Below are positions 1,188 to 3,310 of a stretch of 24,907 nt of DNA, one piece after another. Origin of the DNA: a virus. Each line of letters opens with the position of its first letter. Position 1 is the first letter of the stretch. The notes below the pieces were generated by a model. It searched no databases. It saw only the letters and a program-made list of their open reading frames with translations, and had not been told where the DNA came from. The position numbers were made by a program, and so were the translations under genes. Location of the stretch: positions 1-24,907 of IMG/VR virus record IMGVR_UViG_3300037586_001514. One strand, 5' to 3'.

Positions 1188-1267
1188 GGGGATGATACAG
1201 GCATTGACTGTCTGCAGGGCTTATTATGAGCACAGACAGGACGGGGGTTCGATTCCGCCCATCTCCA
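1188..1267 (+). ncRNA. tmRNA-like tRNA-like domain lacking the tag-coding part
   Basis: The ends match tmRNA, not an ordinary tRNA. The acceptor stem is GGGGATG (1188-1194) with CATCTCC (1260-1266): 7 bp, with G at position 3 facing U at position 70, the identity element for alanyl-tRNA synthetase, and A73 at 1267. The next bases (GATACAGGCATTGAC) resemble the conserved tmRNA 5' D-loop region. The 3' side GGACGGGGGTTCGATTCC is the tmRNA T-arm type; its 5-bp stem has one G-G mismatch and a 7-base TTCGATT loop. In place of the long insert with tag ORF and pseudoknots, a perfect 7-bp helix (1208-1214/1233-1239), equivalent to P2, is closed by a small hairpin (1219-1223/1227-1231). CCA is not encoded (CTA follows). 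A tRNA reading gives a D-stem (1197-1200/1208-1211) but no anticodon stem. A T-run follows at 1271. Confidence 0.7.
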
Positions 1268-2439: not shown

Positions 2440-3310
2440 ATAAAAAATGATATGGGGCTTGGCCCGATAACTCTTGTGAGAGAGTATAAAGATGTGTTAG
2501 GGGGATTAGATCCCTAACATGTTGCCATCGTAAGATGGTCAATCTAAGCACACGGATAACAGGAACAATGGGGAAATCCCTGAGTTTCTATTTTGCATTC
2601 TCATGCAGAGTTGAGTCAGAAATGGCAATAGGAAAATTCGTAGGTATAGTTATGAACTATCTTCTTCAGATAGATAATAGTATATATCAGTTATAAATGG
2701 TGCTCTTGCGAGTATGCGTATATAACGGTGATGTAGAAGGCATCGCAAACTGTAGTTTAGTATTTTGTGCTCCAAAAGAGTATGAAGCTATTCTGTAAGG
2801 ACTACAGTTAAATATGAGAAATCTGGAAAACGCCGTAAGGCATTAACTAGAAAGAGAAACACTTACAGCGTCAATCATCGAAAGGTGACTAATTCTCTAC
2901 ACTTCGGTGAATAGAGAGTCTTCAGATCCCTCAAAGATCTGTAGATTTAAATAAGAAAATACATTTTAGGGACGGCCATCCTTAACATGCTATGAGTAAG
3001 ATTTGAGTAGATGATGACGATACGAGTGGTCAACGCAATTGACCGTCACTGGAGAAATACCCTATGCAAATGGGGTGGATAAAAGGGTAACCATACGGAA
3101 CTAACCCATGAAAGATTCTCTGTAAGAAAGCCGTAATCTCAGGCTTTCGCCACTACGGTGGACAATAACAAATACTTTCCCTTTTCCTACCACTCAAATA
3201 TCAAACCCCTACTAGGACGTGGGACAACTAATAGACTTATGAATAGGCTGGGTTGTAATACCTTGGGAAATGGTTCACTCGTGCGTCGTGGTGACCTCTC
3301 CCTAAAATAG
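2440..3310 (+). ncRNA. Candidate giant ornate structured RNA (GOLLD/ROOL-like in style)
   Basis: About 870 bases without a credible ORF and with higher G+C than its surroundings (43% in 3001-3060, against 32% in the coding line 3421-3480). It is a chain of stable hairpins: 2495-2502/2512-2519; 2525-2529/2534-2538 with a GTAA loop; 2748-2756/2801-2809 (perfect 9 bp, long-range); 2832-2834/2839-2841 with GTAA; 2875-2879/2884-2888 with GAAA; 2900-2902/2907-2909 with TTCG inside 2894-2899/2912-2917; 2923-2928/2936-2941; 3028-3033/3039-3044; 3126-3132/3142-3148; 3150-3153/3158-3161 with TACG; and 3272-3278/3291-3296. The GNRA and UNCG loops occur in this form only on the + strand, which fixes the transcribed strand. 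Size, ornateness, phage setting and a nearby tRNA-like gene recall the GOLLD and ROOL RNAs, but I cannot align it to either. Ends are approximate. Confidence 0.65.

Follow-up and report, generated by a model that had tools for sequence, protein, structure and literature searches.

Positions 1188 to 1267 of IMG/VR virus record IMGVR_UViG_3300037586_001514 (24,907 bases, all of which were analyzed and are called the window here) hold an 80-nt element that looks like the two ends of a tmRNA joined together. Is this element a genuine member of the tmRNA family, and what could the tRNA-like part of a tmRNA do for a virus when nothing is left to encode a peptide tag?

Anatomy of the element

The element lies on the positive strand and runs from G1 of the acceptor stem to A73. 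Reading the sequence directly, we found that GGGGATG (1188 to 1194) pairs with CATCTCC (1260 to 1266) at all seven positions, the third pair being G-U (G3-U70). The discriminator A73, at position 1267, is followed by CTA, and CCA is not encoded. The match to the Rfam tmRNA model places a tmRNA-type D-loop region, which has no D stem, at 1195 to 1207. A P2 helix and its cap follow (1208 to 1239). The helix has 7 bp, formed by CTGTCTG (1208 to 1214) and CAGACAG (1233 to 1239), and is compensated in relatives; an 18-nt capping hairpin (1215 to 1232; 5-bp stem, TTA loop) replaces the tag-coding and pseudoknot part. The T-arm (1243 to 1259) has a 5-bp stem and a TTCGATT loop. The first-pass annotation had described tmRNA-like ends (a 7-bp acceptor with G3-U70, A73, and a tmRNA D-loop) and a closed 18-base hairpin in place of the tag frame and pseudoknots, and both descriptions hold. 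The tmRNA-type T-arm that it reported is also present, but the middle pair of its stem is a G-G mismatch that had gone unnoticed. In sister contigs, this pair is a U-G wobble.

The Rfam tmRNA model (RF00023) matches 1188 to 1267 with 52.7 bits (E = 2.7e-18; gathering score, 47). The match spans model positions 1 to 374, including both ends, with 310 positions skipped. In keeping with the tmRNA-like character first claimed, there was no confident tRNA call: ARAGORN reported neither a tRNA nor a tmRNA at this place in the window, Rfam reported no RF00005 match, and the D stem and anticodon arm of a tRNA are absent. The element has the tRNA-like domain of a full bacterial tmRNA, with G3-U70, and lacks the tag frame and pseudoknots, which fall within the skipped model positions. 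The acceptor-then-coding order of a permuted tmRNA is likewise absent, as RF04321 stayed below its cut-off in 21 records. What we found is a complete tRNA-like domain (TLD) in a virus record, with no tag frame and with 18 nt where a tmRNA has its middle part, in a record that may itself be a fragment. This corresponds to a TLD-only phage tmRNA, which we call a mini-tmRNA.

The folding energy of the mini-tmRNA is modest when taken alone (z = -1.67), so the evidence for the element consists of its covariance-model score and its conservation. A promoter scan at the mini-tmRNA gave matches no more numerous than in shuffled sequences, none of them clear. On the evidence of the model score and of the relatives described below (L002, L005, and L153, among others), 1188 to 1267 is a real, conserved, and complete tRNA-like domain of tmRNA without the tag-coding part.

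We also searched for the missing half. No second tmRNA piece scored above cut-off in the mini-tmRNA records searched (RF00023, and RF04321 over the 21 records), and the separate tag-coding half that the first-pass annotation had held against its own reading was thus not found. No SmpB gene was found in the mini-tmRNA records searched either. Many of these virus contigs are fragments; for three Streptomyces phages, the search covered the entire record. Lacking an SmpB gene in the same records, the mini-tmRNA would depend on SmpB of the host.

The window encodes phage-type replication proteins, namely ribonucleotide reductase, DNA polymerase, helicases, and primase, and the virus probably infects bacteria. 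A DNA search of the whole window against the phages collection gave no match, and Pfam and PHROGs assigned no function to the genes beside the mini-tmRNA.

Conservation and spread of mini-tmRNAs

Two sister contigs, L002 and L005, were found through the reductase, which is 96 to 97% identical at the protein level. Both carry the mini-tmRNA with 2 changes in 84 nt. The block conserved between them and the window stops at the end of the mini-tmRNA, and the adjoining DNA is unalignable. In the more diverged contig L153, the inner hairpin of the window is kept letter for letter, and the P2 stem is different in sequence but paired. L005 additionally contains an orphan tRNA-like T-arm (GGTAGGGTTCGATTCCCGC, positions 2029 to 2056) about 1 kb upstream of its mini-tmRNA, without a complete tRNA.

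To look further afield, we scanned virus contigs with a pattern in which only loop and junction letters were fixed, and with a second pattern that additionally required an initial GGGG. These scans yielded further mini-tmRNAs (L018/L033, L019, L020, L021, L022, L030, L031, L152, L153, L154, L155, L157/L164, L158/L161, L159/L163, and L160), and roughly a dozen unrelated contigs are represented. The members are 67 to 85 nt long, including a 4-nt 3' tail. The shortest (L152 and L159) have a 5-bp P2 closed by a loop of 4 to 5 nt; in many others, a small internal loop (5' strand approximately xAAG, 3' strand A) separates P2 from a short capping hairpin. Two narrower patterns gave no match over viral contigs; one base of the T-stem, as well as the T-loop, is different in the relatives.

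Cultured phages carry the same form. Streptomyces phages Shaeky, LuckySocke, pSt2308, BRock, and Alone3 have mini-tmRNAs among their tRNA genes, none annotated as tmRNA, and phage GiJojo has a copy identical over the matched 81 nt. The Alone3 copy scores 36.8 bits, which is below the Rfam gathering score. Location within tRNA arrays fits a translation-related cargo gene. The search of related phages that had been proposed for this 80-nt form therefore found it in sister contigs, in other virus contigs, and in Streptomyces phages. ARAGORN missed nearly all members of the family, and such genes have thus probably been overlooked in many annotated phages. The tmRNA that ARAGORN did call in L033 appears to overextend the 5' end of the mini-tmRNA, and we regard its "tag" as spurious.

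Conservation of G3-U70 and of the P2 helix had been put forward as a check on the element, and both are kept in relatives. We aligned 17 sequences and scored three helices. Standard pairs made up 98.0% of the pair cells, as opposed to 70.3% in shuffled alignments and 45 to 55% with slid partners. Pair cells changed on both sides numbered 87 versus 28.5, and the covariation score was 0.681 versus 0.145; shared ancestry inflates these pair counts, though the phages are diverse. G3-U70 was invariant in 17 of 17 aligned sequences, and in 22 of 22 phage sequences once those from Streptomyces phages were included, even though U70 was fixed in no search pattern. Neighboring pairs do change. Pair 5-68 occurs as G-C, A-U, C-G, and U-G, and three phages (LuckySocke, Alone3, and BRock) have U-A at 4-69 next to an unchanged G-U at 3-70.

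A pattern scan was also run over genome contigs; among the matches listed, those scored were unrelated or did not belong to the mini-tmRNA family. A model of the family was scanned over two phyla (395 and 396 genomes). Nine loci were checked, six of which overlap full tmRNAs of the hosts themselves and one a tRNA-Ala, with two unexplained. Only a few candidates were scored per genome, so the scan does not prove that bacterial chromosomes lack mini-tmRNAs. Two genomes of one bacterial phylum (L179 and L180, sampled around a Bacteroidetes genome) contain 78-nt TLD-like sequences with G3-U70 and A73 and no tRNA call (L179, 447 to 524, negative strand; L180, 1501 to 1578, positive strand). These score 28 to 29 bits with the tmRNA model, below gathering, and each genome has a second match. 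They are possibly a divergent TLD-only gene.

The GOLLD neighborhood

Downstream of the mini-tmRNA, on the same strand, the window contains a GOLLD RNA, whose 3' domain matches RF02032 at 2748 to 3145 with 211.4 bits; homology to the GOLLD region of the relatives begins near 2444. GOLLD is also found in L002, L005, and L153, just downstream of the mini-tmRNA and on the same strand. The gap from the 3' end of the mini-tmRNA to the GOLLD-homologous stretch is about 3 nt in L153 and about 110 to 120 nt in L002 and L005, where the mini-tmRNA sits between a conserved block and GOLLD. Thus, it lies immediately 5' of GOLLD in three of the four relatives. In the window, by contrast, about 1.2 kb with open reading frames separates the two. 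This difference in position between the window and L002/L005 indicates that the mini-tmRNA moved as a unit relative to GOLLD.

No GOLLD was seen at the other mini-tmRNA loci, and the mini-tmRNA was absent from twelve other records, ten of which had been fetched by a GOLLD motif. The association is therefore specific to this clade. GOLLD RNAs occur near tRNA islands and may hold tRNAs in their linker (PMC12286853), so a tRNA position may simply have been filled by the mini-tmRNA. Binding of GOLLD to ribosomes has also been reported (PMC12286853). GOLLD at 2748 to 3145 is a neighbor and at most a candidate part of the same system.

Possible functions and known relatives

The RNA to be explained has a defined structure, is conserved with compensatory change and an invariant G3-U70, and is spread over unrelated phages. 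Without a tag frame, it can neither tag nascent chains nor free a ribosome by means of a stop codon, which points to a decoy. Our preferred reading, to which we give a probability of roughly 0.6, is a TLD-only phage tmRNA that acts as a charged decoy and blocks host trans-translation during infection. Once transcribed, the RNA would undergo tRNA-like 5' trimming and receive CCA, and the host would charge it with alanine by virtue of G3-U70. Assuming that the host has tmRNA and SmpB, the charged form would bind SmpB and EF-Tu, compete with host tmRNA for SmpB and for stalled ribosomes, and so suppress trans-translation, presumably to the benefit of the phage.

The decoy idea, raised in the first-pass annotation, has an experimental precedent in relevant passages of PMC4131195 and PMC11915505. 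Mycobacteriophage DS6A has a tmRNA listed as "TLD only" (PMC4131195). As that paper recounts from Mao et al. 2009, a molecule similar to the DS6A TLD strongly inhibits tmRNA in E. coli whether or not it can be charged, perhaps by titrating SmpB, and the corresponding passage of PMC11915505 repeats this account with the same citation. Phage tmRNA has also been suggested as a possible counter to host tagging (PMC5648845). If inhibition is independent of charging, as the passage in PMC4131195 has it, and G3-U70 is yet invariant, this suggests selection for more than SmpB titration. Simple titration would then be less favored than tag-free rescue or than a charged decoy entering the ribosome together with EF-Tu and SmpB. 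The T-stem mismatch in the window copy and the lack of a clear promoter in the scan count against a decoy.

Tag-free rescue, which we consider doubtful, would have the alanine-charged RNA and SmpB accept the stalled peptide and add one alanine, with release factors or ArfB then freeing the ribosome; phage proteins from broken messages would thereby escape the tag and proteolysis. It would account for the strict retention of G3-U70 despite charging-independent inhibition in the DS6A-like case, and tag-less mitochondrial tmRNAs, which co-occur with SmpB, are believed to assist when mRNAs are incomplete (PMC11915505). However, the mini-tmRNA has no stop codon with which to end translation, no release-factor gene was seen beside it in the window, and the DS6A-like molecule, in the account given in PMC4131195, inhibited tmRNA rather than helping. 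The close spacing in L153, L002, and L005, together with the tRNAs near or within other GOLLD RNAs (PMC12286853), could instead mean that the mini-tmRNA is made with GOLLD as a tRNA-like passenger or a 5' processing signal. The intervening reading frames in the window, the loci without GOLLD, and the twelve records without a mini-tmRNA make this improbable. Finally, ssrA is a common integration site, with its 3' end as the usual leftover (PMC10865867), and full tmRNAs do occur in phages, so the element might be what remains of a degraded tmRNA gene, or an attachment-site duplicate left by integration into host ssrA. Against this, many lineages retain both halves together with a closed P2 that covaries, the sister contigs preserve the element next to unalignable DNA, and cultured phages carry it in tRNA arrays. 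We therefore disfavor a remnant as highly improbable.

If the charged-decoy reading is correct, phages are predicted to interfere with bacterial ribosome rescue through an 80-nt RNA, and mini-tmRNAs could serve as small RNA inhibitors of trans-translation. To our knowledge, trans-translation is absent from human cells. A bolder extension seems unlikely as a whole: phages of very different hosts would share a class of alanine-chargeable anti-tmRNA RNAs under strict selection on G3-U70 and a capped P2, acting by charging and A-site entry beyond SmpB titration, and in the window clade the RNA would be produced together with the GOLLD nanocage RNA or ride on it.

Among known systems, bacterial tRNA-Ala shares G3-U70, A73, the T-arm, and the 7-bp acceptor with the mini-tmRNA, which differs in having no D stem or anticodon arm and in matching tmRNA, not tRNA, as its best Rfam family. 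Full phage tmRNAs (that of Gordonia phage PatrickStar and the permuted ones of Ruegeria phage RpAliso, Pseudomonas phage PaMx31, and others) are likewise phage-borne and have the same tRNA-like ends. The PatrickStar tmRNA is 417 nt long with a middle part, whereas mini-tmRNAs are the ends alone, and the permuted ones match RF04321. Six cultured phages (L168, L169, L170, L172, L174, and L176) have permuted tmRNA matches over gathering where no tmRNA is annotated. In one of them, Tunturiibacter phage Tunturi_4, the match adjoins an RF-1 domain peptide chain release factor gene, ArfB-like by annotation (L176, 1618 to 2379), giving two ribosome-rescue-type genes in one phage. PatrickStar has a Pistol ribozyme match (L173, 996 to 1069; 36.9 bits; gathering, 34.5) about 0.5 kb upstream of its tRNA-Leu and full tmRNA genes.

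Organellar tmRNAs of jakobid and oomycete mitochondria and Mallomonadaceae plastids have also lost the tag-coding part, and the plastid forms, at about 65 bp, are similar in size to the mini-tmRNA (PMC11915505). They differ in that they are not phage genes, the mitochondrial ones are usually permuted, and they co-occur with SmpB (PMC11915505). The first-pass annotation knew of no such minimal form, but DS6A and other TLD-only forms are already published, as passages of PMC4131195 and PMC11915505 attest. The form itself is thus known, though little explored; the features that appear new are the wide spread of the family, beyond what the cited papers describe, the conserved G3-U70, and the place just 5' of GOLLD. 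This breadth suggests that DS6A, a single published oddity, represents a recurrent phage strategy. Like the window element, the DS6A tmRNA (tmRNA Website tmID 11587) is phage-borne, has little beyond the tRNA-like domain, and has no tag frame. It is to the DS6A tmRNA, a molecule similar to which inhibits host tmRNA according to the published account, that we liken the window element by description, whereas the link of its clade to GOLLD and the spread of its family far beyond mycobacteriophages set it apart.
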